Notes: generated by a model not told the origin, from the sequence alone. Counted from the stretch's first letter, positions 9,951-29,843 are shown. The stretch is 51,244 nucleotides of DNA from Candidatus Margulisiibacteriota bacterium (GCA_028702315.1 JAQVPA010000003.1:1-51244), one strand, 5' to 3'. Made by a program: numbers and translations.

Positions 9951-10430
9951 CTACCCTCCTTTCCTATCCAGATTGCGGTATTGCGTTGCTTCCGCAATAT
10001 GCCGCGCCTGAATATTATCCGCCCCTTCAAGGTCGGCGATCGTCCGAGCAACTTTGAGAATTCGGTCGTAAGCACGTCCCGAAAGCTGAAGATGAAGAAT
10101 CGCTGATTTGATCAAACTCTCCGCTTCAGTATCAAGCGAACAAAACACCTTCATTTGTTTTGGCGTCATTCTGGAATTACAATGGGTTTCGGTCCCCCGG
10201 AACCGCCGCTGCTGAACCTGCCGCGCCTGTGCGATTCGCTTTCTTATCGCTTTGGATGGCTCCCCATCGGGCTGGGCAGCCAGCTCTTCCTTAGTAAGCC
10301 GCTGAACTTCAACGTGAAGATCGATCCGGTCAAGCAATGGGCCGGAAAGTTTGTTCCAGTAATTTTGGACCCGGTGCGGCGGGCAAGTGCAATTCTTGAT
10401 CGGGTCCATATAATTGCCGCAGGGACACGG
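9951..10430 (-). pseudogene. comM: comM 3' fragment, separated from its 5' part by the integrated element
   Basis: About 158 residues of the C-terminal part of the Mg-chelatase-like AAA+ protein ComM: CPCGNYMDPIKNCTCPPHRVQNYW, then SGPLLDRIDLHVEV, then the helical C-domain (LSGRAYDRILKVARTIADLEG). The frame continues upstream to 10502 through element DNA, with an ATG there, but comM homology begins at 10430. The matching 5' part lies at 29839-30893. ComM is a hexameric helicase that promotes branch migration during natural transformation. The split removes sensor/arginine-finger parts from the ATPase half, so the gene should be inactive while the element is integrated. Confidence 0.92.
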
Positions 10431-11508
10431 CATCGCCATCTTTTCCATGCTTCTGGCGATCCACCTCTGCATACTTGAGGAATTCCCAAGGGTATATTTC
10501 AACCGCTATACTTGTATCGGAGATGTCGATTTTCTTAACTATTATTTTAAGTAACTGGTTTTTAAGCTTTTCATCGTCAATTTGACTTAACAGCTGCTTT
10601 ATTGTCATTGCTTTTTCTAGTACCACGCCTTTATCGGCTTTATAGTTGGCCATATTGTTTAGCTCATCTTCGGCTTTTCTAATGTCATCTTTGATCTTTG
10701 CTTGCTCATCATTACACTTGTTATTTTCTAAATCAAAAGCATCCTTAGTTATTAATTCATCACCATAAGCCCTAAACATGCCTTTCCTTCTTTTTTCTAT
10801 TTCTACTAAGTCCTGGCTACAGTCCCTAATCGCCTTATCAAGTAATTGCCTCTTTGATGTTGTTTCACCTTCGCAAACAGATGAATTTAGCTGCTGTTGA
10901 ACCTCTTCCGTCTCCAGCACCATCGAATTTAATGCCATCATCACATGCTCATCAAAATCCTTTTTATTTACCCTGAATCCACAGGCTTTACATCGGTACT
11001 TTGAGATACCTTTTACTTGGGTATGCCCATACATCTTCATTCCACATTTAGAGCAGAAAAGTAATCCTGAAAGCAGGTAAACACAAGGCTTAGTATGGCG
11101 CTTATAGTTCTTTTTCTTTTCAAGTAAAAGCTCTCTGGCTGACACTAACTGCTTCTCATCAATTAGCCCCAACCTTATTGGGGAAGGAATACTAATTCGT
11201 TCCCATTGTTTCTTATCTTTCTTGCTCTTGCGCTTGTTAACAACCTCGTACATGTTTCTAGCGTAAACCCCTTCAAGCAGTCCTCCCAGACCACCATCAG
11301 CCTGATCCTCTGTCAGTATCATTCTTTTAAGGCTTGTATGGCACAGTTTCTTGTCTCCCATCAGCTTGTTCCGGTTAACCCAATCTACTGTTTGCTTGAT
11401 GTTATCCAGCTCATTAAGTTTAATTAAAACCTGGTTAATCACCTTAAGCTGGTCAGCATTGGGATATAATATCTTCCGTTTTTTATCTTTTTCAAAAGAG
11501 TCAGCCAT
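10330..11508 (-). CDS. Large serine recombinase, recombinase/zinc-ribbon/coiled-coil part
   Basis: 392 aa from the ATG at 11508 (TTG at 11511 possible). It holds the recombinase domain (LYPNADQLKVINQVL), a zinc ribbon (LLFCSKCGMKMYG...YRCKACGF), a coiled coil (about 195-300) and a C-terminal VKKIDISDTSIAVEIYPWEF. It lacks the catalytic Ser domain, which is in the preceding gene overlapping by 8 nt (ATGGCTGA). The pair equals one large serine recombinase, the integrase of this element. The element boundary (core at 10426-10430) lies inside this ORF: its last 32 residues are comM DNA in another frame. In a circular element the frame would instead run into the double-HTH ORF now at 29371-29841. 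Confidence 0.85.
   Translation of the reverse strand: MADSFEKDKKRKILYPNADQLKVINQVLIKLNELDNIKQTVDWVNRNKLMGDKKLCHTSLKRMILTEDQADGGLGGLLEGVYARNMYEVVNKRKSKKDKKQWERISIPSPIRLGLIDEKQLVSARELLLEKKKNYKRHTKPCVYLLSGLLFCSKCGMKMYGHTQVKGISKYRCKACGFRVNKKDFDEHVMMALNSMVLETEEVQQQLNSSVCEGETTSKRQLLDKAIRDCSQDLVEIEKRRKGMFRAYGDELITKDAFDLENNKCNDEQAKIKDDIRKAEDELNNMANYKADKGVVLEKAMTIKQLLSQIDDEKLKNQLLKIIVKKIDISDTSIAVEIYPWEFLKYAEVDRQKHGKDGDAVSLRQLYGPDQELHLPAAPGPKLLEQTFRPIA
10426..10430. other. Left attachment junction of the element (core CACGG on +)
   Basis: The minus strand reads GGCGATG-CCGTG-TCCCTGCGGC: element sequence, shared core, then comM codons for PCG. The same CCGTG occurs at 29839-29843, where comM sequence is on the other side. 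Joining the two comM sides restores the conserved AAMNPCPCGNY motif exactly. Confidence 0.85.
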
Positions 11509-12205
11509 CAATTATTTCCTTTGAATATCCTAGTGTTAGCAGGTCATCTTTATTATATTTATTTAATTCAACCCAATCCCAACCATAAGCAGCCTTATTC
11601 CCTAGCACCTTAAGAGACCTAGCACGGTTAGGGACATTCCTTTTAATGCGGTAGCTGGTTTCATCGCTTTCAAGTTCAGCTAGAGCAGCCATCAACACAT
11701 AAAAGAACTTACCGTAGGCAGAAGTGGTGTCAATCTTCTGGTTGATGGCCACAATATCAACACCAAGCTTCCGCATATAGTCAGCCTCTTCAATCAGGAT
11801 CGAAGTCTTACGAGCAAGCCTTTTAAGCTCTGTAAGCAACAGGATGTCAATGTTATGGTTTTCAACGTCATAACGGTACTTATGGTACTCAGCCTCGTCC
11901 CTGATGTACTTGCCCTGCACTTCAAGCAGTGGGTATTCTTTAACGATCACCCAGTTGTTGAATTTGCAGTAATCTGAGGCAAGCTTGAAATGACTCTGGG
12001 GGGCATCTCTTTCAACAGACTCTTCATGAGATATCCGGTTCCAGAAGCCAACTCGCTTAAATCGCTTACCACACCCTGGGCATTCAACTTGACCATAATC
12101 AAATTCTTTACCACAGACACCACAGGTTAACTTTTTGGGCAATCTGTCTGATAATGACTGGCGCTTATACTCACTAATGAGTTTTTTAACATCTACTTTT
12201 TCCAT
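11501..12205 (-). CDS. Large serine recombinase, catalytic-domain part with N-terminal zinc ribbon
   Basis: 234 aa. It begins with a four-Cys zinc ribbon (CGVCGKEF...CPGCGKRF, about 28-49), then a serine-recombinase catalytic domain. FWNRISHEESVERDAP corresponds to the usual YxRxS nucleophile motif (Ser about residue 58), ILLLTELKRLARKT to the LxRLxR motif, and the domain ends with AALAELESDETSYRIK. The ORF stops at the start of the recombinase domain (NKAAYGWDW). The next ORF continues the homology in a +1-shifted frame, with overlapping stop/start. It may be a genuine two-subunit integrase, a frameshifted gene or a recoding site. An N-terminal zinc ribbon is uncommon in this family. Confidence 0.85.
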   Translation of the reverse strand: MEKVDVKKLISEYKRQSLSDRLPKKLTCGVCGKEFDYGQVECPGCGKRFKRVGFWNRISHEESVERDAPQSHFKLASDYCKFNNWVIVKEYPLLEVQGKYIRDEAEYHKYRYDVENHNIDILLLTELKRLARKTSILIEEADYMRKLGVDIVAINQKIDTTSAYGKFFYVLMAALAELESDETSYRIKRNVPNRARSLKVLGNKAAYGWDWVELNKYNKDDLLTLGYSKEIIDG

Positions 12206-12348
12206 GTCCCTTGCTTCCTAGCCTGATTGATAATTTCGGCAATTCGCCTTACTGTTATTAAACGTTCATAGTTCTTAACATCACTGCTACAACACAGCTT
12301 TACTTCGATAATTTGGCTTTTAGGCATAGGTCTAGTGCCCTAAGAAAA

Positions 12349-12381
12349 TTAATTGTTGCAAAACGTCGTCCTCGGCGTCCT
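12349..12381 (+). repeat. 33-bp inverted repeat, left copy
   Basis: It starts TTAATTGTTGCAAAACGTCG. The exact reverse complement (33/33) is at 29247-29279. The two inward-facing copies enclose 16.9 kb: all element genes except the integrase pair and the double-HTH gene. Confidence 0.75.
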
Positions 12382-12410
12382 TTGCGCTGTTATTGCCCGT
12401 GGTTATTAGG

Positions 12411-14636
12411 CTATTCATCGGTTTTCTTCCGAAAATCACGTGGCTTGTGTTTTAATCCCCTGATAAAACGCCCCTTGCTATTTTTCTCAAGAATTATTCG
12501 GTTAGGGAAAAGAAGCTTTATCCTTCTTGATAGCTGAGCAGTGGTTCTCGCAACGGGGTCATAATCACTTGGATCAGTCCATGTCCCTCTATTGGGATCA
12601 TATAAACCATTAAGTGCACAATAGTTCCCTCTGTAGTCATTGTCAAATACTTCACCGCTGAGAATGGCTGATTTTGGGTCAAAGGAATAATGTTGGTCTA
12701 CAAAGTCTCGTATATGATTAGATGCCAATTGAAGTTCTTCAAGTTTACTCAGATCTGATTCGGTCAGCGCTTTCTCTCTATACAGCCGTTCTGCTGTATC
12801 AACCAGCAGGACGAGCATCCCCTGCTGGAGCTCCCTAATAAGTTCGCTATTAACATCTTTAAGCTCAGGATTGGCTTCAAACCTTGGGTCGGGTGATTTC
12901 TTGATAAATTGATTTGGGAAGTTCACTAGCGTTGTTCTGTTTTTCATCGCTTCGCCAATTCTTCCAAATTGGGGTTCTTCATTCATGCAAAACATCAAAA
13001 CCACAAATACTCTTGCTTTAAATGGGTGGCAATATTTTCTTTCAAACACTTGGCTATCTCCAGATGTAATACTTTTTATGTTTTCTTCGTCATTAATATA
13101 GACCCCATCATTCTCCGTACTGATGTTCATTCGACATCCCACTATTTGTGCGAGACCAAACCTTTCATTCAAGCGCTTATATCTTATATTTGAAACCGCT
13201 TTATTGCCGATAACATATGGGAGAATATTGTCACACAGAATTGACTTCCCGTTATCTGTAGTTCCGTATAAGATGAGATAGCGTTTATAATTGACCCGAT
13301 ATCTGAGCCATGGAAACATGGCAATTGCGCATGCTTCCAGCACATGCCGTTGCTCAGATTCATTTGGTATAGTTAACGAAAGAAATTCCTTGATTTTTGA
13401 AGTAGCATAATCCTTTATGTACGGAATTTGGCTAATAAATGTAAACACTAGACTCTCGTCGTTGAAAAGCTCAACTTTGCCATCCTCATTAACCCTTAGA
13501 AAACCATTCTGAACGGGGAAGCAGTTTTCTGGGTTGACCCTATCAATCGGGGCTATTCTGGAGCTTTCTAATAAGTAAATTATTTCTTCAATAAAGTATC
13601 TTCCGACTAGAGCTTCACATCCATTAATACAGAGGTGCTCCATGACCATGTTTTGGATTTGGAACTCGTTTTCAAAAGGGATGTAAATATTCCCCTCCCG
13701 ATGGTGTAATTGTCCATAAATTGTTTTAAGGCTGAAGGCGTCTATTAGCGATGACGTAATTGTAAGCAAGGGATTGGGGTTTTTCTTTTTTAAGAGCTCA
13801 ATTCCTTGAGTGTCACCTGTTATCTCTATGGCTTGGGGGGGTTCGTACTTTGAAAATAATTCATAAAAAGATTTGATCTTATCCTCACCGGTACTTTCGC
13901 CAAACCAATCCGTCACATCATATCCGGTTTTCTTACCTTCTCCCCAATTGATCGCAAATATTTGGCCGGAGAAATGATGTATTTTCAGCATTTCAATTAT
14001 TTTGTTTGTTCCGTTTCTACCTGCCTGATCGGCATCATAGGCGATATAGAGCTTCTCAAGGGGCAGCAACGGGGTAATAAGCTCGTCATTAACTGTCCCT
14101 GCTCCATAGGGGAAAGACACTGCTTGGATACCATTAGACAATAGCGTTTCGGTGTCCTTCTCTCCTTCTGCAAGCATTATTTCCTTGGCTTTTTTAAGGG
14201 CATCTACATTATATATAGGAAATTGGCCTCCCTGATCCTTTAAGATTTTCCACCCATATGGTTTTCCGATCTCAGGGGCATACTTATACTTTGTGTTAAT
14301 AACAACGCCCCCCACCACGTAGTCGTAACTTGTGATGCGTTCGTCCTCCCCCACATTCTCTTTAATGCCGAGTATTTCCTTTGTCTTTGCTAAAACCCTT
14401 GGAAATTCAATTTTCCGATTTAATCCTTCCATCATTGCCACAAAGTCAAAAATATCCCCCTGACCACATCCTGCAAAGCACTTAAAAATGCAACTTTTGA
14501 GATTAAACGATAGCGATGGATTGCGATCATTATGAACTGGGCACAAAGCTATCTGCTGGCCCTTCCATGGGTCAACTTGTATGCCATAGAATTCAAGAAT
14601 CTTTATAAAATTATCTGGGCTTTTTAAAACATCCAT
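12411..14636 (-). CDS. Primase-helicase (CHC2 zinc finger, TOPRIM, D5-type SF3 helicase)
   Basis: 741 aa. Residues about 30-60 form a CHC2 primase zinc finger (CPVHNDRNPSLSF...FKCFAGCGQGD). A TOPRIM domain follows at about 150-205 (IMLAEGEKDTETL, LYIAYDADQAGRNG). The C-terminal half is a phage/plasmid D5-like helicase with Walker A LILYGTTDNGKS (about 455-467) and later STENDG and VLMFCMNEEP motifs. It should initiate and unwind at the element's own origin, so the element is likely to replicate autonomously when excised. It is the largest element gene and is followed by the integrase. A 13-bp-stem hairpin lies just upstream. Confidence 0.85.
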   Translation of the reverse strand: MDVLKSPDNFIKILEFYGIQVDPWKGQQIALCPVHNDRNPSLSFNLKSCIFKCFAGCGQGDIFDFVAMMEGLNRKIEFPRVLAKTKEILGIKENVGEDERITSYDYVVGGVVINTKYKYAPEIGKPYGWKILKDQGGQFPIYNVDALKKAKEIMLAEGEKDTETLLSNGIQAVSFPYGAGTVNDELITPLLPLEKLYIAYDADQAGRNGTNKIIEMLKIHHFSGQIFAINWGEGKKTGYDVTDWFGESTGEDKIKSFYELFSKYEPPQAIEITGDTQGIELLKKKNPNPLLTITSSLIDAFSLKTIYGQLHHREGNIYIPFENEFQIQNMVMEHLCINGCEALVGRYFIEEIIYLLESSRIAPIDRVNPENCFPVQNGFLRVNEDGKVELFNDESLVFTFISQIPYIKDYATSKIKEFLSLTIPNESEQRHVLEACAIAMFPWLRYRVNYKRYLILYGTTDNGKSILCDNILPYVIGNKAVSNIRYKRLNERFGLAQIVGCRMNISTENDGVYINDEENIKSITSGDSQVFERKYCHPFKARVFVVLMFCMNEEPQFGRIGEAMKNRTTLVNFPNQFIKKSPDPRFEANPELKDVNSELIRELQQGMLVLLVDTAERLYREKALTESDLSKLEELQLASNHIRDFVDQHYSFDPKSAILSGEVFDNDYRGNYCALNGLYDPNRGTWTDPSDYDPVARTTAQLSRRIKLLFPNRIILEKNSKGRFIRGLKHKPRDFRKKTDE

Positions 14637-14664
14637 TTCAGGTGCTCCTCCTATTTATATCTTC

Positions 14665-14696
14665 GATCGGGGTGGAGTCACAGCTCCACCCCGATC
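14665..14696 (-). terminator. Strong hairpin before the primase gene
   Basis: GATCGGGGTGGAG and CTCCACCCCGATC form a perfect 13-bp stem with a 6-nt loop (TCACAG or its complement). It lies between the stop of the small upstream gene and the primase start. No T-run follows on the minus strand, so it could be an attenuator, processing site or origin element instead of a terminator. Confidence 0.5.
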
Positions 14697-14705
14697 AAAC
14701 CCGAC

Positions 14706-14999
14706 TCAACAGATTTTTTCAATCGAATAGCGGGTATTTATACCTTTGCCCCTCCTAATGATTTGAACCATATCTCCTATTTGGAGTTTGGCAAATGCAC
14801 GAGCCGCTGCCTGCGCACTTGAGGCCCACTGCCTTTCCTTCCCATTTACTTGCAATTTGAACATTGCGATTTCTTTCGATGAGTCGAAGTTCGATGTGTT
14901 GATTTCACACCCGAGGTATGTGGCCTGCACAGGTACTCCGTCCTCTAGAACCAAGAATCGCGCATTGTCTTCAATATATTGCTCTAAACTCTTGCCCAT
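14706..14999 (-). CDS. Small hypothetical protein, possibly OB-fold
   Basis: 97 aa from the ATG at 14999, chosen for its strong SD (GGAGGTGA, about 9 nt upstream). Beta-rich pattern: VPVQATYLGCEI, IAMFKLQVNGKERQW and IGDMVQIIRRGKGINTRYSIEKI. The last segment resembles an OB-type strand that closes on a nucleic acid, but no family is recognised. It sits directly upstream of the primase-helicase, so a replication accessory role is an inference from position only. Confidence 0.6.
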   Translation of the reverse strand: MGKSLEQYIEDNARFLVLEDGVPVQATYLGCEINTSNFDSSKEIAMFKLQVNGKERQWASSAQAAARAFAKLQIGDMVQIIRRGKGINTRYSIEKIC

Positions 15000-15033
15000 A
15001 GCTTTTTCACCTCCTTCCTTATTTTGATCCTCC

Positions 15034-15228
15034 CTAACACGCCATACACATAACAACCTTACTAGCCAGCCTAAGTAATGATTTGCTCATCGCCTCGTAA
15101 TCATCTATAACTTGAGTAAGGCCGTCTGTGTAATCCGTTCCCCTGTCATTAGGGCTCACTTGTGCTTTCCCATATTTAAGGATGAACAGGAGCTTTCGCC
15201 GGTCAAATATTGGATTGTCATAAAACAT
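15034..15228 (-). CDS. Small hypothetical protein
   Basis: 64 aa from the ATG at 15228, preceded by AAGGGGGTGG. It begins MFYDNPIFDRRKLLFILKYG and ends with SLLRLASKVVMCMAC. No family is recognised. It precedes the 97-aa gene and the primase on the same strand and is probably in the same transcript. Confidence 0.5.
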   Translation of the reverse strand: MFYDNPIFDRRKLLFILKYGKAQVSPNDRGTDYTDGLTQVIDDYEAMSKSLLRLASKVVMCMAC

Positions 15229-15348
15229 TCTAACCACCCCCTTGAAGCATTTGTTTTACGCTAAGGCCAGATAACAAAAAAGCCAAAGCGATTATGCTAT
15301 GGCTATTATGGCAAAGCGGGATTTTGAGGTATTACGTGTAAGGAATCC

Positions 15349-16266
15349 TTAACTATTGCGAAGCTTCTTTATCCTACTTCTTGCTGTTCGAACAGCTTCA
15401 GGAGTCATTTTCATCTTTTTAGCTATTTCTCGATCAGTATCCTTATTAGAAATGTATTTGTGCTTAATAGGATCAAACCTCACATTAGTGTCCTTCCTAA
15501 GGGCTTCTATCTTTAGATCCCGTAAAAGCTCGTCTTTTCTCTTCCATCTTTTAGTTTCAGGCAAGCCAGGAAACATTGCCTTAAATCCATCCCTCCTGTG
15601 CACATCGTAACCTGAGCAATAAATATCCTTTTTAGTCGGCTCATCACCTACTATTTCAGAGAATGCCTTAATACGATCATTTGTTATATTCCTCTTATGT
15701 AGATAGATTACCGGGCGAAACCCAACCTCTTCATATTGAATGCCATATTTCTTTACATGTACGCTTATTTCCACTCTCATCTCAGTCATCATTCCTGTTT
15801 TGCGCAATAATTCACTAAGCCCTGTCATTATCTCGTTCACAGCAAAAGATGAAAAAGAAGGATAGCGGCATAGGTGTTTTATAATCCAATTCATATAGAA
15901 TCCTTCTTTATCGCTCGAATTTAGATATTTTTCAATGTGCCGTTTCCCAAATATTATTAAATGATTGACAAAAGGGATCCATCCCTGATGAAGGCTATAT
16001 TTATACAAGACAGGATCAATGTTATCTATTCGGGTATCGTGGAATATAATATCATCATCTATTTTTCTCTTTGCTTTAAAATTACGGATCATAAACCGAT
16101 AGGCGCTCACATCATTCCCGCAACCTTTTTCGGGGATGTGATTCTTCACTCTTAATTGTTTTATGTCAGCCATAAAAGGCTTATTAATAATAAGCAACTT
16201 CATTTTTTGGCTGATTTTGCCTTCAAGCCTATTAGTTGATTTGCTCGATTTTGCTCTTCTGTTCAT
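15349..16266 (-). CDS. Hypothetical protein with C-terminal HTH-like segment
   Basis: 305 aa, basic. The middle (about 60-200) alternates helices and strands (SLHQGWIPFVNHLIIFGKRH, MRVEISVHVKKYG). The last 35 residues (NKDTDREIAKKMKMTPEAVRTARSRIKKL) read as a sigma-70-region-4-like or GerE-type helix-turn-helix. It may be a DNA-binding replication initiator or regulator, but the body matches nothing I know. The start ATG at 16266 lacks a strong SD; a Met at codon 22 is an alternative. Confidence 0.6.
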   Translation of the reverse strand: MNRRAKSSKSTNRLEGKISQKMKLLIINKPFMADIKQLRVKNHIPEKGCGNDVSAYRFMIRNFKAKRKIDDDIIFHDTRIDNIDPVLYKYSLHQGWIPFVNHLIIFGKRHIEKYLNSSDKEGFYMNWIIKHLCRYPSFSSFAVNEIMTGLSELLRKTGMMTEMRVEISVHVKKYGIQYEEVGFRPVIYLHKRNITNDRIKAFSEIVGDEPTKKDIYCSGYDVHRRDGFKAMFPGLPETKRWKRKDELLRDLKIEALRKDTNVRFDPIKHKYISNKDTDREIAKKMKMTPEAVRTARSRIKKLRNS

Positions 16267-16421
16267 ATGAATATCTTTTCGCTATCATTATAACTCTTCT
16301 CCCCATCAATCTTCTACATACTCACCTCCCCTACCATTTACAGTGTAAACAATCGGCCCTATTTTGACCGGAGTATGAACACGATAAAGAAAACGCTAAA
16401 TAAGGGGGTGAGGGTTTTTTA

Positions 16422-16955
16422 TTACTTAGTTTTAGACCATCGCAGATAATAACCGGATACTTTTCTTTTTCTAGAATCTTTGCGTCCTCGTGGTCTACCT
16501 AACACTTTTCCCTGTCTAACGGCTCTATGGAGACCTGCCATAGTTCTAGAAACGATCAATTCTCGCTCATATTCCGCAAAGACACCTAACATCTGCCAAA
16601 ACATCTTTCCTTCAGGAGTTTGTGTATTGATGTTCTGTGTTACAGAAATAAATTCAACCCTTTGGTTTTTAAATTCTTCAAACAAATTCAGTAAGTGCTG
16701 TAACGATCTTCCTATCCTATCTAGCTTATACACAACAACACAACTAACCTGATTTCCCCTCATATCGGTTAAGAGCCGTTCAAATTCTGGCCGCTTATCA
16801 TCCTTACCACTAAAACCACTGTCTATGTATTCATCGTTTATTTTGTACTTCATCCTGGCACAATAATCTCTTAACGCCATTAATTGAGTTTCAATTGTCT
16901 GGTCTGCCGTAGAAGTTCTTGCGTATAAGACTACGTCCTTCCCTTCCTGAGTCAT
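16422..16955 (-). CDS. Small serine recombinase (resolvase/invertase family)
   Basis: 177 aa. Catalytic motifs are clear: VVLYARTSTADQ (nucleophile Ser about residue 15), YIDSGFSGKDDKRPEFERLL, VVVYKLDRIGRSLQHLL and GVFAEYERELIVSRTMAGLHRA. The C-terminus is a short basic GRPRGRKDSRKRK tail with little room for a full HTH. Enzymes of this type resolve dimers or invert segments. A candidate substrate is the pair of 33-bp inverted repeats at 12349 and 29247, though no direct link is visible. An SD (AGGAGG) precedes the ATG. Confidence 0.9.
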   Translation of the reverse strand: MTQEGKDVVLYARTSTADQTIETQLMALRDYCARMKYKINDEYIDSGFSGKDDKRPEFERLLTDMRGNQVSCVVVYKLDRIGRSLQHLLNLFEEFKNQRVEFISVTQNINTQTPEGKMFWQMLGVFAEYERELIVSRTMAGLHRAVRQGKVLGRPRGRKDSRKRKVSGYYLRWSKTK

Positions 16956-16981
16956 GTTTCCTCCTAATTCGCCATTATGTA

Positions 16982-17329
16982 TTACGATTTTTCTTCCGCT
17001 TTTGACGATGCATTATAAAACTTACTATCCAACATCTGCATATTATCAATAACCACTTCGGTCGTTGATCTCTTAACTCCTTCCTTGCTTTCATAGCTTC
17101 TTATCTGAATTCTTCCTTCTACAGCTACTAGCTTCCCCTTTTTCAAATACTCCCCACATATCTTAGCCAGGCCTCCAAAAGCCACACAATTAATAAATTC
17201 AGCAGAATTGCTGCTACTGCGATTAATTGCTAATCTAAAATGAGCGACTGCCGTTTCATTCTGTGTATATCGAACCTCGGGGTCAGCCACAAGTCTCCCG
17301 GCCAAGATTGATCTATTTAACCCACCCAT
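16982..17329 (-). CDS. ssb: Single-stranded DNA-binding protein
   Basis: 115 aa. MGGLNRSILAGRLVADPEVRYT, AHFRLAINR, INCVAFGGLAKICGEYLKKGKLVAVEGRIQIRSYE and VVIDNMQMLD are the standard SSB OB-fold blocks. The acidic C-terminal tail ends EEKS instead of the usual DDxPF tip, which suggests loss of standard protein partners or element-specific use. It starts next to the stop of the upstream gene, with SD AGGAGGTGAG. Confidence 0.92.
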   Translation of the reverse strand: MGGLNRSILAGRLVADPEVRYTQNETAVAHFRLAINRSSSNSAEFINCVAFGGLAKICGEYLKKGKLVAVEGRIQIRSYESKEGVKRSTTEVVIDNMQMLDSKFYNASSKAEEKS

Positions 17330-17542
17330 TTAACTCACCTCCTTTTCTATGCTCCCTGGCAACTTCTTCTTCTCGCTATCATATCCTTCCAATCTTTTTT
17401 GTAATAAGAGCTTATCTCTCCTAAGGTTCGAGATAAAGTCTTCAATAACTGCCAGCCGGATTACCAAGATATTTCTATAATTCGCCTCATTTTCAAGTAT
17501 TTCCTTATTTATCTGATGATACCCAATCCGGCTATTATTCAT
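17330..17542 (-). CDS. Helical hypothetical protein; frame open further upstream
   Basis: 70 aa from ATG 17542, mostly helical and charged (IGYHQINKEILENEANYRN, LRRDKLLLQKRLEGYDSEKKK). The same frame is open upstream to about 17700 and reads as plausible protein (RIVYLGGVAYFNGKHKISNK, KIVYGRWKNKSDEF) but has no ATG, GTG or TTG there. A rare start codon (ATT or ATC), coupling to the DUF2958 gene, or a frameshift could explain this. Its stop adjoins the ssb start. Confidence 0.5.
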   Translation of the reverse strand: MNNSRIGYHQINKEILENEANYRNILVIRLAVIEDFISNLRRDKLLLQKRLEGYDSEKKKLPGSIEKEVS

Positions 17543-21857: not shown

Positions 21858-21869
21858 TTATGCCTCCCC

Positions 21870-22361: not shown

Positions 22362-22626
22362 TCCATACAATATCAGTCATATTCAAAGTGTCTTTAGAAT
22401 CACCATTTGGAAGCATGCTAAACAGCACATGCTTCTTATATTGGAATACGATCCCTTCCTTGGCATAAGTTAAGCCCAATAAATAATCCTTTAGCTTCTT
22501 TGCTTCAGAAGGGTCTTTGATCTTTTCAAAAGAGACAAGCAAGTATTTATGCTTAACATATTCATCTCGTAGGGTTTTAATGTTTTTATATTCGTCTGGA
22601 TAATGAAGTGTTTTAATTTCAGGCAC
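22354..22626 (-). CDS. SepF-like domain protein
   Basis: 90 aa from GTG 22626 (SD AAGGGGGTG; longer upstream starts lack one). YLLVSFEKIKDPSEAKKLKDYLLGLTYAKEGIVFQYKKHVLFSMLPNG resembles the SepF core (a beta-alpha-beta fold with DFLxGxxYAxxG and FLxxP motifs). SepF anchors FtsZ to the membrane in Gram-positives, cyanobacteria and archaea. Here the amphipathic N-terminal helix is short or absent. It may act on host division or copy a fold for another purpose. Similarity is by eye only. Confidence 0.55.
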   Translation of the reverse strand: MPEIKTLHYPDEYKNIKTLRDEYVKHKYLLVSFEKIKDPSEAKKLKDYLLGLTYAKEGIVFQYKKHVLFSMLPNGDSKDTLNMTDIVWNE

Positions 22627-22704
22627 AAGGCACCCCCTTACCATATATAGATATAGACAACACAATGGACACAAACCCCAAATATTTTGACGTTTAGACA
22701 ATAA

Positions 22705-22899
22705 CTAAATTGATGTTTTGTCGCTACTCCCGCATTTCACACAACTACCATGTTTGAATCCCAGGTTTGTGCATGACGAGCTACCTTCTGCTCCGTATTC
22801 GCATCCAACGTTTCCACACTTCTTACATTTGTACAACGAACGCAAACAAGCATCATTAGATGACCCACTACCTTTTCTTTGCCCTTTACATGAGCTCAT
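22705..22899 (-). CDS. Small zinc-ribbon protein
   Basis: 64 aa with four conserved pairs of Cys or lone Cys (CKKCGNVGC, SSCTNLGF, SCVKCGSS), a pattern that fits a small zinc-binding ribbon. It has a strong SD (AGGAGGTGAG). Similar short proteins occur in mobile elements; function unknown. Confidence 0.65.
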   Translation of the reverse strand: MSSCKGQRKGSGSSNDACLRSLYKCKKCGNVGCEYGAEGSSSCTNLGFKHGSCVKCGSSDKTSI

Positions 22900-22936
22900 T
22901 TTCTCACCTCCTTTTTAATATCATTTTTTATTATAA

Positions 22937-23308
22937 TTAAGGAGCCAATGTATTTATACAAGTATAGTCATTAACATCTAATCTTATTAAACGTGATTTT
23001 TTATCAAAAAAGGCATAAATAGTATCTCCATTCTTCTCATAAGTCTTATAAGTTCCTATAGGCACATCTTTATAATTTAGAAGAATTTGAGATTTAACTG
23101 GTTTCCCGAAATAAGTTGTAAATTCTTTTTCAGGCATAAAATCTTCTAATTTATACATTACAACCCATCCTGTTTTACTAGAAATAGCCCCCACTTGCAT
23201 AATTTTATACATGGTAGAAACATCAATAGAATGCGCATAGCATTTAGCAGATAACCCTACACCACTCAATATCAACAACAAAATCAAATATGATAATAAC
23301 TTTTTCAT
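22937..23308 (-). CDS. Secreted hypothetical protein (Sec signal peptide)
   Basis: 123 aa from ATG 23308 (SD AGGAGG). The N-terminus MKKLLSYLILLLILSGVGLSAKCYA is a clear signal peptide with cleavage near CYA/HS. The mature part is about 98 residues and beta-rich (WVVMYKLEDFMPEKEF, DGDTIYAFF-type strands). No family is recognised. Likely periplasmic. It follows a coiled-coil gene whose stop lies 4 nt upstream, and probably shares its transcript. Confidence 0.65.
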   Translation of the reverse strand: MKKLLSYLILLLILSGVGLSAKCYAHSIDVSTMYKIMQVGAISSKTGWVVMYKLEDFMPEKEFTTYFGKPVKSQILLNYKDVPIGTYKTYEKNGDTIYAFFDKKSRLIRLDVNDYTCINTLAP

Positions 23309-23312
23309 TTTT

Positions 23313-23657
23313 CTACCTCCTATTTTCAAGCTCTTTGATATAAGCATTCAACGAATCCATTTTTAAATACAGCTCGAATAAATCATTGATCTGACGGTCT
23401 AGATTTATATTATTCATATCCCTTGAAATATCCCTTGCAAGATTTTCAATCGTCTCAATCTTTTTTACTACCTGGCCCGATCCCGGCACCTGAAATAGGC
23501 CTAAAATGCTTAATGCCCCTCTTATTGACTTACTTTCTTCAACAAGCTCATTTACAGGCTGATTGAAGTTCTTTAGGTAATTCTTGACCGTTGTTAGCCC
23601 GTCCATTACAGACTTAATCCTTTCTTTGCTTATATAACGGGAGTCAAAGATGTCCAC
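23313..23657 (-). CDS. Coiled-coil hypothetical protein
   Basis: 114 aa, helical throughout (LTTVKNYLKNFNQPVNEL, VVKKIETIENLARDISRDM, INDLFELYLKMDSL). The GTG start at 23657 has SD GGAGGC. It is divergent from the XRE gene, and the intergenic region holds two operator-like sites, so the regulator may control both directions. Confidence 0.55.
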   Translation of the reverse strand: MDIFDSRYISKERIKSVMDGLTTVKNYLKNFNQPVNELVEESKSIRGALSILGLFQVPGSGQVVKKIETIENLARDISRDMNNINLDRQINDLFELYLKMDSLNAYIKELENRR

Positions 23658-23680
23658 TTATATTGCCTCCATTGGCATAA

Positions 23681-23731
23681 GGATACTATCGGTTGTGTTG
23701 TTTATTATAGGCCACGGATACAATAGTGTCC
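23681..23731. promoter_or_regulatory. Operator pair between divergent genes
   Basis: GGATACTATCGG (23681, one good half-site, degenerate other half) and GGATACAATAGTGTCC (23716-23731, full site). The second ends exactly at the XRE ATG (23732), consistent with a leaderless, self-regulated controller gene. Confidence 0.6.
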
Positions 23732-23986
23732 ATGGTGAAAGCAGCATCTTTCTATCAACCAAATAAAGACCTCCTCACCGCCCTTTCCCAAGAGCTTAAA
23801 TCTATCCGTAAAGCTAAGAAGCTAACCATTGAACAGCTATCAGAGCTATCTGGTCTGCATGAGAAATATCTGCAAACGATCGAAAGAGACCATAGAAACA
23901 TGTCCATCTCCGTTTTTGTGCAGATTGCAAAGGCACTCAAGGTTTCACCATCCAAATTGCTTGAAAAAGCCTTGCGATCTAAATAA
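23732..23986 (+). CDS. XRE-family regulator of restriction controller (C protein) type
   Basis: 84 aa from ATG 23732. LKSIRKAKKLTIEQLSELSGLHEKYLQTIERDHRNMSISVFVQIAKALKVSPSKLLEKAL is a single HTH_3 domain whose SGLHxxYLxxIERxxRNMS block matches restriction-modification controller proteins. It lacks an SD but has an operator immediately before the ATG, like leaderless C genes. Sites of the same palindrome lie before the 18483 and 19638 genes. The R-M genes start about 0.7 kb downstream but do not show a clear copy of the site. Its 3' end overlaps the convergent 69-aa gene. Confidence 0.85.
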   Translation: MVKAASFYQPNKDLLTALSQELKSIRKAKKLTIEQLSELSGLHEKYLQTIERDHRNMSISVFVQIAKALKVSPSKLLEKALRSK

Positions 23987-24188
23987 CTCCATTTATTGTT
24001 TCTATCATGCTTTGAAGGTTAACTTTCAATACTTGGAGCTTTTTTAGCTTGGGCTTGGCCAGGCCATTTTTATTTAGCTTTGCCTCAACCTTATCAAGGT
24101 AATCGTATAGAGCGAAATGAAGAATCCCCACATCATCATAATTTAATTCGATACTTACACTCATATTATCAACCTTTAATATCTTCAT
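23979..24188 (-). CDS. Small hypothetical protein
   Basis: 69 aa from ATG 24188 (SD GGAGGTG). MKILKVDNMSVSIELNYDDVGILHFALYDYLDKVEAKLNK looks like a small alpha/beta fold. No family recognised. It converges on and overlaps the XRE gene by 8 nt. Confidence 0.5.
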   Translation of the reverse strand: MKILKVDNMSVSIELNYDDVGILHFALYDYLDKVEAKLNKNGLAKPKLKKLQVLKVNLQSMIETINGVI

Positions 24189-24194
24189 AAGCAC

Positions 24195-24692
24195 CTCCCC
24201 AATACAAACGACAACACCTCCCCCTGTATATAAACGATACTTTTTTCAGAAAAACTTAACTTTTCGCAATTAATGAGGTGATAATTTCCCATATAATGCT
24301 ATCTATTGGGTATAATTATAGTAAATATTAAGCCTGAAATGCTATTTTTATTAAATCTGTCTCACAATCCTACCAATCATTTCATAAAACCTCTTATTTT
24401 TCCTATTCTTACAAACAATATTGCCGATTCTTAACCCTCTAATGCGTAATCCGATCTATTTCGATCATCTGAAAAAATCTTTGGGCAAAACCGCTTTGTG
24501 GACAATGCTAATTCACCCCAATCAGCGAAGGATTCGTTCGAGGAGAGGTTTATTATTTCTTTTAGGCAGCTTGGGCGGGCTAGTCGTCAAACAATCTCAT
24601 TAAAGCTTAATATTTATCCATCTCATAATAAATTGAAACACTTGCAGTCCCATTTGTCCTGATTCATAATAGGGTTCATTAGGTAGCTTATA
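24195..24692. other. 498-bp stretch without a confident gene
   Basis: It begins with AT-rich DNA including CATATAATG and GGGTATAATTATAG, possible promoter sequences for the gene at 24693. A 60-codon + frame at 24421-24603 and an overlapping frame (about 24440-24660) with RFIISFRQLGRASRQTISLKLN-like sequence, lacking an ATG, could be decayed remnants of a gene. No clear operator of the GGAYAC type was found. No RNA gene is recognised. Confidence 0.4.
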
Positions 24693-25634
24693 ATGACAAA
24701 TAATACATACGAAATATACTACGATGCTTTCCAAGAGGGAAAATGGTTTCAGTGCCTATCCAAGCATCTAAGTGATGCGATATTATTGCCAATTTCACAA
24801 ACCGATAATCCAGAGGTCAGGAAGCTCCTCCGATATGATAAACCCGATATTATTTTGCTACATAATGGGAAAGCAGTAATTTCACTTGAAAAGACCACCG
24901 AAGTTCCTACTGGCCATAATATTGGTCAAAGATTTGGCAGAATTGTCTGTGCTGCAGAAGAAAAAGTAATTGGTATATATTTTGGCCCTTTTCTTGCCAT
25001 GAAGCATGGGACATATGCAGGCAAATGCTGGCTAAATGTTAGACAGTTAAGGGCTATGCTAAAATTAAAGGAATTTCATCACATCCCTAGTCTTGCAGTA
25101 AACTGGAAATGCGATTCAAAATATGAACTCATCCGAAATGGGACTGAAACCGACGGATTATCCTCTTTGGTTAATAGGCTTATCGAACATAATTTTTCTC
25201 CAAATATTACAGGCGTATCATTAGTTGAACAAGAAATGGGTGAAGTAATAGACGAATCCGAGACTCGCAGGTCGGCATATAAAGAGCCTCCGCCATCAGC
25301 ACGAATAATCTCAACAGATAAGTACAAACAAGACAAAAGGTTAAACGGCGTCCAACTCCCGAAATATTTCTTTTCAAGAGCGAAGTCTCTCCACTATGTT
25401 GTAGGGATGAAGGCTGGATTACGATCCGATCCTTTTACAGGGATGCAACTTGTTTATGATTATGCATATTGCCGGACAGGGCCCAATAAAGAAGATAGAA
25501 GCATTAATTTGGTCATGGAAATCCCCGATCTCTCCGTCAAAGACTGGGATTCGGTTACAAACACAGAAAGAAAAGACAAAAGAATGCTAAAATTATTTCC
25601 GGATTTACTTTTATTAAAAGACGGGGTCGTTTAG
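24693..25634 (+). CDS. Putative restriction endonuclease subunit 1 (PD-(D/E)XK type)
   Basis: 313 aa. RYDKPDIILLHNGKAVISLEKTTEVPTGHN (about 47-76) has the spacing PD-x(n)-ExK of the nuclease superfamily. The rest, including IGQRFGRIVCAAEEKV and YFFSRAKSLHYVVGMKAG, is not a family I can name. It directly precedes a second PD-(D/E)XK gene (next base after the stop), and both face two methyltransferase genes, which makes a restriction role likely. A two-subunit endonuclease with two methylases suggests an asymmetric recognition site. That is inference. Confidence 0.65.
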   Translation: MTNNTYEIYYDAFQEGKWFQCLSKHLSDAILLPISQTDNPEVRKLLRYDKPDIILLHNGKAVISLEKTTEVPTGHNIGQRFGRIVCAAEEKVIGIYFGPFLAMKHGTYAGKCWLNVRQLRAMLKLKEFHHIPSLAVNWKCDSKYELIRNGTETDGLSSLVNRLIEHNFSPNITGVSLVEQEMGEVIDESETRRSAYKEPPPSARIISTDKYKQDKRLNGVQLPKYFFSRAKSLHYVVGMKAGLRSDPFTGMQLVYDYAYCRTGPNKEDRSINLVMEIPDLSVKDWDSVTNTERKDKRMLKLFPDLLLLKDGVV

Positions 25635-26084
25635 ATGCATATCGATGAATCTTTCGTCTATTTTAAAACAAAGCAATATCTATCTGATAATGGATGGACA
25701 ATCCTGGCAGGAGAACCCGCTGGTGGCTCTGATGAATTACCTAGAATAGAAATAAGGAACCCAGGCTTTCGGGATAAAGGGAGCAAAGGCTCTTATAAAA
25801 TTGATTTAATCTCTCAAAAGGGCGATGTCATATTGTTAACGGAAATCAAGGTTACATACAGCCATTCGGACATCACAAAATTAAACGATATAACGTCTAC
25901 CAAGAACGCACAATTGATTGCTGCACTCAAAGAAAGGCTTGACCTCGACATCTCATTAAAAAAGATTATTAAATCCTTATCATTAAATAATCTAAAGTCA
26001 TCTCGTATCCCCTACGACTTTGTATGCTTTAAAGTAGGAGAAACAATCGAGGTTATAAACCAACACTTACTTCCTAAAGATTAG
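25635..26084 (+). CDS. Putative restriction endonuclease subunit 2 (PD-(D/E)XK type)
   Basis: 149 aa. YKIDLISQKGDVILLTEIKVTYSHSDI (about 54-80) shows a clean D-x(n)-ExK catalytic pattern (D57, E72, K74 approximately). Helix and strand order around it fits a minimal endonuclease fold. The start codon follows the stop of subunit 1 directly, so the two are co-translated. It ends in an 18-nt convergent overlap with the methyltransferase on the other strand. Other nuclease roles (e.g. nickase, repair) are possible. Confidence 0.65.
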   Translation: MHIDESFVYFKTKQYLSDNGWTILAGEPAGGSDELPRIEIRNPGFRDKGSKGSYKIDLISQKGDVILLTEIKVTYSHSDITKLNDITSTKNAQLIAALKERLDLDISLKKIIKSLSLNNLKSSRIPYDFVCFKVGETIEVINQHLLPKD

Positions 26085-27272
26085 GATAAACTCTTCCTTC
26101 ATCTTCCCCATCGTTGTCTTATATTTACCCCTTCTAATTCTGGTTTCAAGCTTAAAACCAATCGTCTTTGCGATCCCAACAAACATCTCATCGCATTTAA
26201 CTGTTTCACCTAAAACAACGGGGTTCCCTATTACTACTGCACAATATTTGCTTGGCCTTAATACTCTATACATTTCACTAAATATCTCTGTCATTGATTC
26301 CTCAAATCTTTCAATGACATCCTTTTTGTTTCGCTGCCCCCCCACTATTGAAGAATCTAACACCCTATAATCTAAACAACTCAAGCATCTTTTATGAAAA
26401 AGATAGCCAAATGAATCCTTTAGCCACAATAATGACAACTTAAGATACTCCGCATATGGCACAGCAGAAATATACGGGGGATGCGTCATAATTAAGTCGA
26501 CCGATTCTGCTTTAATGCTGTCCATCTTACGACAGTCTTCTTGATATATTTTAACTGAATGATTATGACTGTATTGCCCAACCAAGGCTAGCATCCCATC
26601 CCTCATTTTCCTCAATTGGTTATAATATATTTCATATGTATTGTTAATGCTGCGCTTATTTTTATCTATCATTAGGTTCCCGTAGCCAGTATGCGCATTT
26701 GATACCGGCCTAACGATCGCCGAAAATGCGCAAACAAAATACTTACGCATATTAACATCCTTAATTTCAGCGTTAATATAATCCCTAATTATAACCAATT
26801 CACGGATAACACTATTTTGATACCATTTATCAATATTTCTAATATTTGGCATTCTATATTTTGCTCGCCCATCATTAGGAGGGAATAATCCGGCTTGATC
26901 CTCTCCGCTTCTCCTCAGTACATTGATTTTTGGAAAAACATTATCTTTAAACTTATTGATATGCTCATCAATAACCTCAACTTTTACTAGCGTTGTTTTC
27001 ACGCTTGTTATTAGATAGGCAACGGGGTTAATATCGACCCCTATTGCGTTCCTTTTTAGCTTGTTTGCTTCTAATAGAGTTGTTCCCGACCCCACAAAAG
27101 GCTCTAAGACAGTATCGTTTTCCTTAGTTAATTTCAGAATTAATTGTTCTGGGATTTGTGGAATATACTTCGAGGAGTACCTATGAATATTATGTGTTGA
27201 ATAATTGGTATCTGCGTCTTTAAATTCCCAATCAGTATCATTTAATTGCATTATTTTATTATTATTTCCCAT
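26067..27272 (-). CDS. DNA methyltransferase (motif I before IV, N4/N6 amino type)
   Basis: 401 aa from ATG 27272 (SD AAGG; the longer start at 27302 overlaps the upstream gene more). Motif I VLEPFVGSGTTLLEA is near residue 57, and motif IV LIMTHPPYISAVPYAEY is near residue 270. So the order is I, then a 200-residue insert with the likely target-recognition domain, then IV (alpha/gamma-like). The THPPY box is typical for amino-methyltransferases, often N4-cytosine. It protects the site cut by the convergent endonuclease genes (inferred from position). Confidence 0.85.
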   Translation of the reverse strand: MGNNNKIMQLNDTDWEFKDADTNYSTHNIHRYSSKYIPQIPEQLILKLTKENDTVLEPFVGSGTTLLEANKLKRNAIGVDINPVAYLITSVKTTLVKVEVIDEHINKFKDNVFPKINVLRRSGEDQAGLFPPNDGRAKYRMPNIRNIDKWYQNSVIRELVIIRDYINAEIKDVNMRKYFVCAFSAIVRPVSNAHTGYGNLMIDKNKRSINNTYEIYYNQLRKMRDGMLALVGQYSHNHSVKIYQEDCRKMDSIKAESVDLIMTHPPYISAVPYAEYLKLSLLWLKDSFGYLFHKRCLSCLDYRVLDSSIVGGQRNKKDVIERFEESMTEIFSEMYRVLRPSKYCAVVIGNPVVLGETVKCDEMFVGIAKTIGFKLETRIRRGKYKTTMGKMKEEFILIFRK

Positions 27273-28056
27273 TGTTAATAATGTTTTCCTTGCATATTTC
27301 ACAATACTCTTTACTTATTTCATATCCTATACAATGTCTGTCGAGATTATTTGCTGCTAACGCGGTTGTCCCAGAACCCATAAAAGGATCCAAAACAACT
27401 TCTCCCGGGTATGAATATAAGCGTATCAATCTAGTTGGCAATTCCACCGGGAATGCTGCGGGATGGTTTTTCTGGCGTGATACTCCAATCGTCCAGTTTG
27501 TCCAAGCAACCTCCTTAATGAATTCTTCCGATAGCTTGTGATTAACCCTGAATTTGTCTTCCGAAATAATACTATTATTTTCCTTCCTAAATATTAAAAT
27601 GAACTCATGCTGGATGTTATAATTTGCATTTCTTGGATATGGCTTAGATTTTAAGAATTGGGTTGTCCCCCTTTGCCATAATCCTTGCGTTCCCTTAGGC
27701 TTTGTCCATATTATTTCCTTCTTTAGACGCATAGAATAATTTCTAAATATTGAAATACAATCTGCAGGGATGTGAACCAATTCGCCATCAGATATTCTTG
27801 TCCCAATGACTAACGCAAAATATCTCCCGGCCTTTAGAACCCTGCTGGACTCCTTAAACACCTTCTCGATCTCCTCCAAGTATTGCTCATAGGATTGTCC
27901 TAACCCTATCTGTTTGTTGCTTTTATAATTTTTTAAATCCCAATAGGGTGGGCTGGTAATAATAAAATCAATAGAATTATCTTTTAATTCGGGCATTCCA
28001 CGAGAATCGCCCAAATATATTACAGTACTTTTAGCCTTAAAGAGTATTTTTGTCAT
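27262..28056 (-). CDS. DNA methyltransferase, beta-class order (SPPY before FxGxG)
   Basis: 264 aa. Motif IV IDFIITSPPYWDLKNY is at about 29-44 and motif I VVLDPFMGSGTTALAANNL at about 218-236, the beta-class order of N4-cytosine/N6-adenine enzymes. The SPPY form points to N4-cytosine, though not exclusively. Its stop overlaps the start of the second methyltransferase by 11 nt. Two enzymes of different class in one operon fits methylation of the two strands of an asymmetric site. Confidence 0.88.
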   Translation of the reverse strand: MTKILFKAKSTVIYLGDSRGMPELKDNSIDFIITSPPYWDLKNYKSNKQIGLGQSYEQYLEEIEKVFKESSRVLKAGRYFALVIGTRISDGELVHIPADCISIFRNYSMRLKKEIIWTKPKGTQGLWQRGTTQFLKSKPYPRNANYNIQHEFILIFRKENNSIISEDKFRVNHKLSEEFIKEVAWTNWTIGVSRQKNHPAAFPVELPTRLIRLYSYPGEVVLDPFMGSGTTALAANNLDRHCIGYEISKEYCEICKENIINNGK

Positions 28057-28293
28057 ATTCTAATATATTATCTCACAATTCCTAATATTTAAGTATACTA
28101 TGAGCGTAGTCATAATTTCCTTGAACCCTTATTTTAAAACGTAATATCTAATTCAGCAAACTCGTTTCATTCCCCAAAAACCCTCATTCAGCCCTTATTA
28201 GATAATGATTCGGGTTATAAGTCGTTTATTATAGATTCTTGGCAGCTGGCCGAGGGGGGACAAAAAGACTTTTTACAAAGCTAAATATGGTGG

Positions 28294-29226
28294 TTATTTT
28301 TCGGTTGCAACCGAATATGAGCCTCCATTAACATTAACCGTAATATCCCCATTCGAATCTGTTCTATACACGTTAATGCTATTACTAGACAACAGTGATA
28401 ACGTTGCTGCCTCCGGATGTCCATATGAGTTCCCTGCCCCAACACAGATAAATGCATCTGTGGGGGTTGTTGCGGTTAGAAGCGCTTGGTTTGTCCCATT
28501 GCTTGATCCATGATGATTTACTTTTAACAACTCAATATCAACATCACCAGAATGCCTACTTAATAAAGAACTCATGCCTGCAGTTTCCAAGTCCCCACAA
28601 TCAAGGAGATCAACTCCCGACTGATTACTAACTTTTATAGCTAATGAATTATCATTTTCATCAGAGGAAGTACTTATAAAGCCAGCAGGGGGATGATAAA
28701 ATCGGAAAGTTAGGTTATCTAGAGTAAAGCTATCCCCATCCTTAACCTCAATCGTAGGTATTGAACTCGTAGCCAGCTTATTCATAAGGCTAACATATGT
28801 TGAGTTTGTGTTTGGGTAGTTCGCAAACATAAAGCCGCTAATTGTGTAATTGCCAACCACGTCCTTGAATTCCCCATAATGGTCAGCGTGCGTATGCGTT
28901 AATATTGCCCTATATATTGAAGCTACTCCCTTTGAATTAAGAAAAGTATTTAATCCGTTACTTGCATCTGATGGCCCAGAATCAATCAATACATAGTGGC
29001 TGTCTTTAGTTTTAATCAGAATCGAATCACCTTGACCTACGTCAATAAAATATACAGAGAAATTATCCCCTGCTATTGTGGTTGAGGTGGTGGATGCTGT
29101 TGTGGTTGTTGAGGTCGCTGTTGTTGATGTCGAGGTGGTTGTGGTTGAAACATCCTGAGCAGACTGACAGCCTGAAAGGGTTACAATTACAGCTAAAGTA
29201 GCTATGCAAAATAACTTTTTTAACAT
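28294..29226 (-). CDS. ComEC/Rec2-like metallo-beta-lactamase-fold lipoprotein
   Basis: 310 aa from ATG 29226; a TATAAT lies 7 nt upstream (29234-29239), predicting a leaderless mRNA. The signal peptide ends in the lipobox LSGC (about Cys 20), then a Thr/Ser-rich linker, then a metallo-beta-lactamase domain: YFIDVGQGDSILIK, LTHTHADHYGEF, LLDCGDLE, VNHHGSSNGTN, GHPEAATL. These are the motifs of the C-terminal domain of the DNA uptake channel ComEC and of related secreted hydrolases. A cell-surface nuclease acting on incoming DNA is possible but not shown. Substrate unknown. Confidence 0.82.
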   Translation of the reverse strand: MLKKLFCIATLAVIVTLSGCQSAQDVSTTTTSTSTTATSTTTTASTTSTTIAGDNFSVYFIDVGQGDSILIKTKDSHYVLIDSGPSDASNGLNTFLNSKGVASIYRAILTHTHADHYGEFKDVVGNYTISGFMFANYPNTNSTYVSLMNKLATSSIPTIEVKDGDSFTLDNLTFRFYHPPAGFISTSSDENDNSLAIKVSNQSGVDLLDCGDLETAGMSSLLSRHSGDVDIELLKVNHHGSSNGTNQALLTATTPTDAFICVGAGNSYGHPEAATLSLLSSNSINVYRTDSNGDITVNVNGGSYSVATEK

Positions 29227-29246
29227 TACTGACATTATACCAGAGC

Positions 29247-29279
29247 AGGACGCCGAGGACGACGTTTTGCAACAATTAA
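29247..29279 (-). repeat. 33-bp inverted repeat, right copy
   Basis: Exact reverse complement of 12349-12381. It lies just upstream of the lipoprotein promoter, so inversion between the copies would exchange the DNA upstream of that promoter. Confidence 0.75.
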
Positions 29280-29370
29280 CCTTCTTGAGGGTAATACAGA
29301 AACCAGTAGAGTAGGTTCATTATCCGGTTTATGCTTAAAAGCCCTTCAAATTCCAGATCATCATTACTAA

Positions 29371-29841
29371 TCATCTATTTAACAACCTCGTCATTTTATT
29401 GAATTTAACTGAATTCTTCGGTATATCAACATCCCTCTCCCATGAGTTTATCGTGGAGGTGGCAACCCTAATTTTTTTACTTACCTGTTTCACTGTTAAG
29501 CACTTCTTCCTTCTTAGATACCTAAGTTTTTTACCTGTTGAGCTAAGTTTCCCGTTATCATCACCATAAATTAACCATATTGGGCTAACTTTCAACGCTT
29601 TAGAGATGGCATATATCCCCTGATCTGAACGGCTCATGTTCCCTCTCTCATAACCGGAGATCGTTCCTTCTGATACACCACTCATTTTAACCAATTGCTT
29701 AACATTCAACCCCATCGCAACCCTAAACTTGTGCAGTCTTTGACCAAAAGACTTATCCGGCAGGATCCTTTTAGGAATTTCATATATATATATGGCTCCC
29801 TTCTTATCTCCAATACTATGGAAATAGTGACGAACCCGCAC
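29371..29841 (-). CDS. Double XRE helix-turn-helix protein at the right end
   Basis: 156 codons from the GTG inside the attachment core to 29371. Two HTH domains are visible: [36 protein letters not shown] (about 33-68) and [35 protein letters not shown] (about 103-137). The first codons [14 protein letters not shown] follow the core CCGTG directly. In the same frame the recombinase ORF at the left end reads ...GDAV up to the core. In an excised circle the two would therefore form one continuous ORF (about 516 codons counted from ATG 11508). In the integrated state its start is uncertain: GTG in the core, or an internal start. Confidence 0.75.
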
Positions 29842-29843
29842 GG
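29839..29843. other. Right attachment junction of the element (core CACGG on +)
   Basis: The minus strand reads GCGGCGATGAAT-CCGTG-CGGGTTCGTC: comM codons (AAMNP), shared core, then element. Together with 10426-10430 it defines the insertion to within five bases. Confidence 0.85.

Follow-up and report, generated by a model that had tools for sequence, protein, structure and literature searches.

The element in comM and the frame across its joined ends

The stretch of DNA analysed here, referred to below as the window, is a whole contig of 51,244 nucleotides (G000:C13; JAQVPA010000003.1) from the 1.5-Mb draft genome of a Candidatus Margulisiibacteriota bacterium; the host genome is Saganbacteria-like, and its nearest named relative is a metagenome-assembled genome of Candidatus Saganbacteria. 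It carries an element of about 19.4 kb (10428-29840, counting one copy of the core) inside comM, and this element has a recombinase gene at one end and an open reading frame (ORF) for two XRE-type helix-turn-helix (HTH) domains at the other. comM serves in transformation and is a known target of mobile elements, for example the AbaR islands (PMC7508600). When the two halves of comM are rejoined across the site the ORF is intact (...AAMNPCPCGNYMDP...), with zero bases lost or duplicated, and the insertion was therefore precise. A sister element was found in a genome that belongs to the same class but to a different family (G054, JAPLLA010000050.1), on two contigs that each end at the same point of comM. 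Since the base preceding TG in the sister is T on the integrase side and G on the comM side, the crossover is most simply placed at the dinucleotide TG.

The recombinase is encoded by two ORFs. The upstream one, int1, supplies a Resolvase catalytic domain (PF00239, 2.7e-17) with the Arg/Ser motif, where RIS aligns with the RVS of TP901-1 integrase, and this domain is preceded by a four-cysteine zinc-ribbon-like stretch (12026-12125; residues 27-60 of protein P0001). The downstream one, int2, has the C-terminal features: a zinc ribbon (Zn_ribbon_recom, 3.4e-8), a match to phrog_95 over residues 93-340, and long helices predicted with mixed confidence at residues 182-308; an AlphaFold model of int2 has a confidence of 43, too low for placing the C-terminus. 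From the catalytic domain, the zinc ribbon with the putative coiled coil, and the attachment site (attP) described below, we class the window recombinase as a large serine recombinase (serine integrase), here made of two overlapping ORFs and not of a single polypeptide. The two overlap by ATGGCTGA, int2 has its own Shine-Dalgarno sequence (AAAGGA, 8 nt from the start), and both the overlap and the Shine-Dalgarno sequence are identical in the window and the sister. We know of no natural two-subunit large serine recombinase; the split is unusual, and the identical overlap and Shine-Dalgarno sequence, together with the constraint on the proteins, argue that it works. A programmed frameshift joining int1 to int2 was rejected as first choice on account of the same Shine-Dalgarno sequence and overlap. 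Phage and plasmid searches with int2 gave matches just 21-25% identical, other full recombinase matches within the phylum were weak, and in the loci read there no tandem-HTH match was attached to a large serine recombinase.

An earlier reading made from the sequence alone (the sequence-only reading) had proposed that the core lies within one recombinase-HTH frame, of about 516 codons from ATG 11508, which integration splits in two. Its codons at the junctions are in the sequence: int2, on the minus strand, runs into comM as GAT GCC GTG followed by TCC (protein ...KDGDAV), and the HTH half comes out of comM as GTG CGG GTT CGT (VRVRHYF...). With the element ends joined (GATGGCGATGCC[G/T]TGCGG across the core), a single frame with no stop leads from int2 into the tandem XRE-HTH, and its length from ATG 11508 is exactly 516 codons. 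The ORF taken there for the recombinase is in frame with the HTH domains, as claimed, and proved to be the C-terminal subunit only, the catalytic domain being encoded by the separate upstream ORF. The frame given for the double-XRE ORF was likewise correct; the core GTG assumed as its first codon is doubtful as the start of a separate HTH gene, since no Shine-Dalgarno sequence lies upstream of it in the integrated state of either element.

Joining the halves of the sister element gives 516 codons again, with zero indels, int2 being 87% and the HTH half 71% identical to those of the window. The recombinase proteins of the two elements are 86-96% identical in amino acids (aa) and the host comM halves 65-67%, which indicates that the module has moved between hosts since their divergence. 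The integrase and HTH sides are common to both elements and much of the remaining content is not, as expected of neighbours in a mobile circle. Up to the core, int2 is under strong purifying selection (dN/dS about 0.06, window versus sister), and so is int1, with 53 synonymous and 6 nonsynonymous codon changes. The joined frame alone is weak evidence, because the frames would agree by chance in 1 case out of 3, and a linker of this composition drawn at random would be open in both elements in about 13% of cases; the case for more than a chance match rests on three independent lines, namely the ortholog, the palindrome at attP and a phage, Harrison, treated below.

Where the HTH protein begins can be judged from the same comparison. 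The first 7 codons after the core belong to the attP arm and the next 11 are variable; then come residues Y20-D29, identical in protein despite synonymous changes, and both HTH units are constrained; conservation of the protein thus extends upstream of its first ATG, which is codon 43 and lies past predicted helix 1 (residues 32-42). Between the core and this ATG the window has no other ATG, GTG or TTG; in the sister a single TTG occurs, as codon 27, and the spacing of its Shine-Dalgarno sequence is poor. Since the conserved protein begins before the first ATG, the core GTG would have to serve as the start of any separate HTH gene; with no Shine-Dalgarno sequence upstream in either element, that candidate was set aside and kept only as a rival.

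The joined ends also form a TG-centred palindrome, which matches at 15/21 positions in the window and 18/23 in the sister. The best other centre in 16.8 kb of the sister scores 15/23, and the window score equals the best of 19,334 other centres, two of which tie with it. Scored over 25 positions, the window junctions reach 8/25 and 13/25 in the integrated state, and the joined ends 16/25. The joined site is a short palindrome with a 2-bp core and differs from the target site (attB), whose symmetry is only 7/30. A strong TG palindrome is what is expected of a serine-integrase attP, and because it exists in the joined state only, it argues independently of the reading frames that the joined sequence is a working attP.

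Phages Harrison and Paisley and other known systems

When the HTH half was compared by tblastn with 50,697 phage records, 47 of them gave a match, and coverage reached at least 80% of the HTH half in three of them only: two records of Harrison and one of Paisley, in each of which the match lies inside an annotated integrase or serine recombinase. Both phages infect Paenibacillus larvae, a bee pathogen. The integrase of Harrison and Paisley (NC_028746 HARRISON_44; KT361653 PAISLEY_44) is one coding sequence of 695 aa with Resolvase, Recombinase, zinc ribbon and two HTH domains; PF07508, undetected in the window protein, is detected in it. The window and Harrison HTH halves align end to end (29%, pairwise E 2e-15), part of the linker included (LLDKTTGQRL in Harrison), and there is no ATG, GTG or TTG between the Harrison attP and helix 1.

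In IMG/VR, two contigs (L049/L050) are 99.9% identical to Harrison up to codon 542 of this gene, then continue in other DNA and reach a stop 18 codons further on (PVVIFPLSMKHKAVPVLH*). The switch point lies 3 bases past a TG that centres a palindrome with arms ATCAAGGTT...AACCTTGAT; its score of 14/23 is the best in the locus, shared with 7 other centres. We read these contigs as the integrated form of a Harrison-type phage, so that the fused and the cut form have both been sequenced. The proposal that a circle encodes a recombinase-HTH fusion which integration splits thereby gained support, as it did from the homologous C-termini, the sister joining without a stop or frame change and the Harrison integrase carrying the HTH domains fused. 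Acetoanaerobium phage ANDSL2_ph1 (47% to the Harrison large serine recombinase) was rejected as a third case, as its integrase ends without an HTH domain and the phage equals the chromosome there. Searches of IMG/VR with P0001-P0003 or with the HTH alignment returned no further relatives, and the fused arrangement is known from two lineages only.

The window system shares with the Harrison/Paisley integrase a large serine recombinase with C-terminal tandem HTH domains and a TG-centred palindromic attP at the domain boundary, cut on integration; it differs in having two overlapping ORFs in place of a single 695-aa gene, and in its target. In the literature, as far as the available text goes, the phage gene is recorded only as integrase or serine recombinase, and the arrangement is unmentioned.

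Other systems resemble it in part. In mycobacteriophage BPs and its relatives attP lies in a separate repressor gene, and integration removes an ssrA-like degradation tag (PMC4557955). Both cases have attP inside a coding sequence and a product shortened at its C-terminus by integration, but here the gene is the recombinase and the part lost is a DNA-binding domain. The likeness to integration-dependent immunity pointed out in the sequence-only reading is apt as a mode of working and does not extend to membership: the window system is probably not of the BPs type. In the 'suicidal' archaeal integrases of SSV/pNOB8 type attP lies inside the integrase gene and integration partitions the ORF; these enzymes are tyrosine recombinases, which the split is thought to inactivate, and self-disrupting recombinases have been called exclusively archaeal (PMC8371274). 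The window system likewise has attP within the integrase gene, but its enzyme is of the serine type, and the catalytic and zinc-ribbon parts remain undamaged and together on one side; it is not an SSV-type suicidal integrase. The engineered phiC31 Int-gp3 and Bxb1 Int-gp47 fusions also place a second domain on the C-terminus of a serine integrase (PMC5737554); they differ in being artificial and permanent, and their added domain is a recombination directionality factor (RDF) promoting excision, not an HTH. Lastly, TP901-1 also has a serine integrase whose attP adjoins the 3' end of the int gene, but that gene stops 26 bp before the attP core and has no HTH domain. No description of an attP inside a serine integrase-HTH gene, a design which the sequence-only reading also did not know, was found in open-licence papers, and a prior description is possible.

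Coordinates and other contents of the element

Coordinates of the features of the element and its target gene, in window positions
Feature	Coordinates	Strand	Basis
comM C-terminal part (host gene, displaced half)	9951..10425	-	comM halves rejoined
int2 tail derived from comM on integration (about 31 codons, then a stop)	10330..10425	-	junction reading
Crossover dinucleotide TG, integrase-side junction	10426..10427	-	junction comparison, window and sister; palindrome centre
int2, C-terminal recombinase part (Zn ribbon, coiled coil), element-encoded up to attP	10427..11508	-	PF13408; phrog_95 integrase; dN/dS about 0.06
Integrase-side attP arm, inside the recombinase coding sequence	10428..10450	-	joined arms match 15/21 in window, 18/23 in sister; unseen in integrated junctions
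int1, N-terminal zinc-ribbon-like stretch and serine recombinase catalytic domain, 234 aa	11501..12205	-	PF00239 2.7e-17; TP901-1 integrase structure match; 53 synonymous and 6 nonsynonymous changes
Shine-Dalgarno AAAGGA and int2 ATG overlapping the int1 stop (ATGGCTGA)	11506..11522	-	identical in window and sister
Small ORF of 44 aa, its end overlapping the int1 start	12193..12327	-	conserved in sister element
Tandem XRE helix-turn-helix half (156 codons counted from the core), continuing the int2 frame in the joined circle	29371..29841	-	PF01381 8.3e-15, PF12844 2.2e-11; 71% identical ortholog in the same place; full-length relative in Harrison integrase
HTH-side attP arm, inside the first HTH-half codons	29816..29838	-	joined-arm palindrome
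Crossover dinucleotide TG, HTH-side junction	29839..29840	-	junction comparison; palindrome centre
comM N-terminal part (host gene)	29841..30893	-	comM halves rejoined

The 44-aa ORF beside int1 is a candidate accessory gene and a candidate RDF. A 57-bp inverted repeat (88%; 12338-12393 and 29237-29291) would, in the circle, flank the module of small ORF, int1, int2, attP and HTH, and may mark the border of an integrase cassette that can be exchanged; read in one way, it encodes the peptide DAEDDVLQQL(I/T)FL. Between the element ends lie genes for a P4-type primase, SSB, a DnaB-like ATPase, a small resolvase, two DNA methyltransferases and a lipoprotein of metallo-beta-lactamase fold. This last gene (28294-29235) is ComEC/Rec2-like and follows directly downstream of the HTH half; the element that carries it is itself inserted in comM. 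The methyltransferase genes, with two plus-strand genes of no known family, one weakly like a restriction endonuclease, occupy 24693-28056, a probable restriction-modification cargo. A 213-bp direct repeat (81%; 18229-18432 and 19370-19581) stands on either side of a plus-strand gene (18405-19430) to which no function is assigned, as if cargo genes had been added behind copies of one leader.

Rival readings and the proposed mechanism

The sequences show attP inside one ORF, at the border between a large serine recombinase and the tandem XRE-HTH part, and show the two parts separated in the integrated state. Taking the ortholog, the palindrome and the Harrison phage together, we think it likely that integration removes the HTH domains from the enzyme, and that state-dependent control of the recombinase is the most likely use of the arrangement. 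Several observations weigh against this. Codons 9-19 after the core show 7 nonsynonymous and 1 synonymous codon change in the HTH frame, with no purifying selection (nor do the counts speak clearly for the comM frame), and the idea that codon constraint throughout demonstrates the fusion was rejected for this reason. Met43 is an internal start with AGGG 5 nt upstream in both elements. No circular junction of the Saganbacteria element, which the sequence-only reading had suggested looking for, was present in its own assembly or in IMG/VR. In int1, a Lys replaces the Asp usual in the DRLxR motif of most serine recombinases (ELKRLAR). The sister int1 frame is broken by deletions of 82 bp and 29 bp (L003 9400-9990), so that this copy is probably immobile or dead, although its int2 is still open and conserved. 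As to Harrison, the empty attB of its host was not seen, and the HTH half at the far end of a Harrison-type prophage was not found in IMG/VR.

The unconstrained linker, the core GTG and the Met43 start with its AGGG would all fit an incidental read-through, in which the recombinase lost a stop before attP, just where classical integrases end, and the HTH protein is an independent regulator that falls in frame by accident and has its own non-canonical or internal start in both states; the chance of about 13% that a random linker is open in both elements also speaks for it. We nevertheless judge it unlikely: the conserved HTH protein begins before any well-placed start, and a start at Met43 would remove helix 1. 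In Harrison, from another phylum, the same arrangement is one coding sequence of 695 aa lacking a start codon between attP and helix 1, and in the phage records every match covering at least 80% of the HTH half is inside an integrase.

That the HTH half is an immunity repressor, with integration toggling immunity as in BPs, is less probable still. Its first HTH resembles the DicA, RstR and P22 C2 repressors, and an attP inside an ORF has a precedent (PMC4557955), but the integrated form in BPs keeps its HTH and loses the degradation tag, whereas here it is the HTH that integration takes away, the free-form C-termini (LLNR, MLNR, LHM) are by inspection not ssrA-like, and Harrison has separate HTH regulator genes adjoining int. 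The least probable of the three readings is a degenerate island, in which a split recombinase is in decay and the fusion in Saganbacteria is a leftover that no longer serves a function. The two frameshifts in the sister int1, the two-ORF recombinase and the divergent catalytic motif would agree with decay; however, int1 and int2 of the window are intact, with synonymous to nonsynonymous codon changes of 53:6 and 79:31, their overlap and Shine-Dalgarno sequence are identical in both copies, and Harrison is an isolated, complete phage.

Under state-dependent control of the recombinase, which we prefer, the free circle would make the enzyme as a recombinase-HTH fusion. One crossover would then swap the HTH domains for a short host-encoded tail and leave the HTH half beyond host DNA and lacking a usable start codon, and integration would thereby change the recombinase from a form with the HTH to one without it; the same crossover would inactivate comM on insertion and restore it on excision. 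In the free state only, the HTH domains, tethered near the coiled coil, would guide or restrain the enzyme on element DNA, or repress the int operon, and integration would release this action. An action on the recombinase or on its operon in the free state seems to us most likely, because a Listeria integrase structure has its extreme C-terminus near the coiled coil, which is linked to the control of direction, and because phiC31 and Bxb1 integrases can change directionality when a domain such as an RDF is fused to their C-terminus (PMC5737554). A transcriptional role of the HTH domains, immunity included, is a less likely alternative. State-dependent control of int is known at the promoter level in ICEKp1 (PMC13023037), whereas the control proposed here would operate at the protein level.

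We lean, with some reserve, towards a class of bacterial serine integrases that have C-terminal tandem HTH domains only in the free state and lose them by the crossover itself, which would amount to an integration sensor coded by recombination. Such a class may have been overlooked, since its copies in chromosomes are split and the fusion is visible only in phage or circle sequences. Serine integrases are used for being one-way, and how phages control their direction is an open problem with few known regulators; in the arrangement proposed here integration itself would rewrite the integrase, the DNA-binding domain being removed without an extra regulator. If the HTH domains alter activity on attP x attB relative to attL x attR, nature would here offer a counterpart of the engineered integrase-RDF fusions and a component ready for use in genetic switches, and the Harrison phage and lysogen pair makes the model directly testable. 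It would also give a bacterial, serine-type counterpart to the self-splitting integrases, which a review has called exclusively archaeal (PMC8371274).

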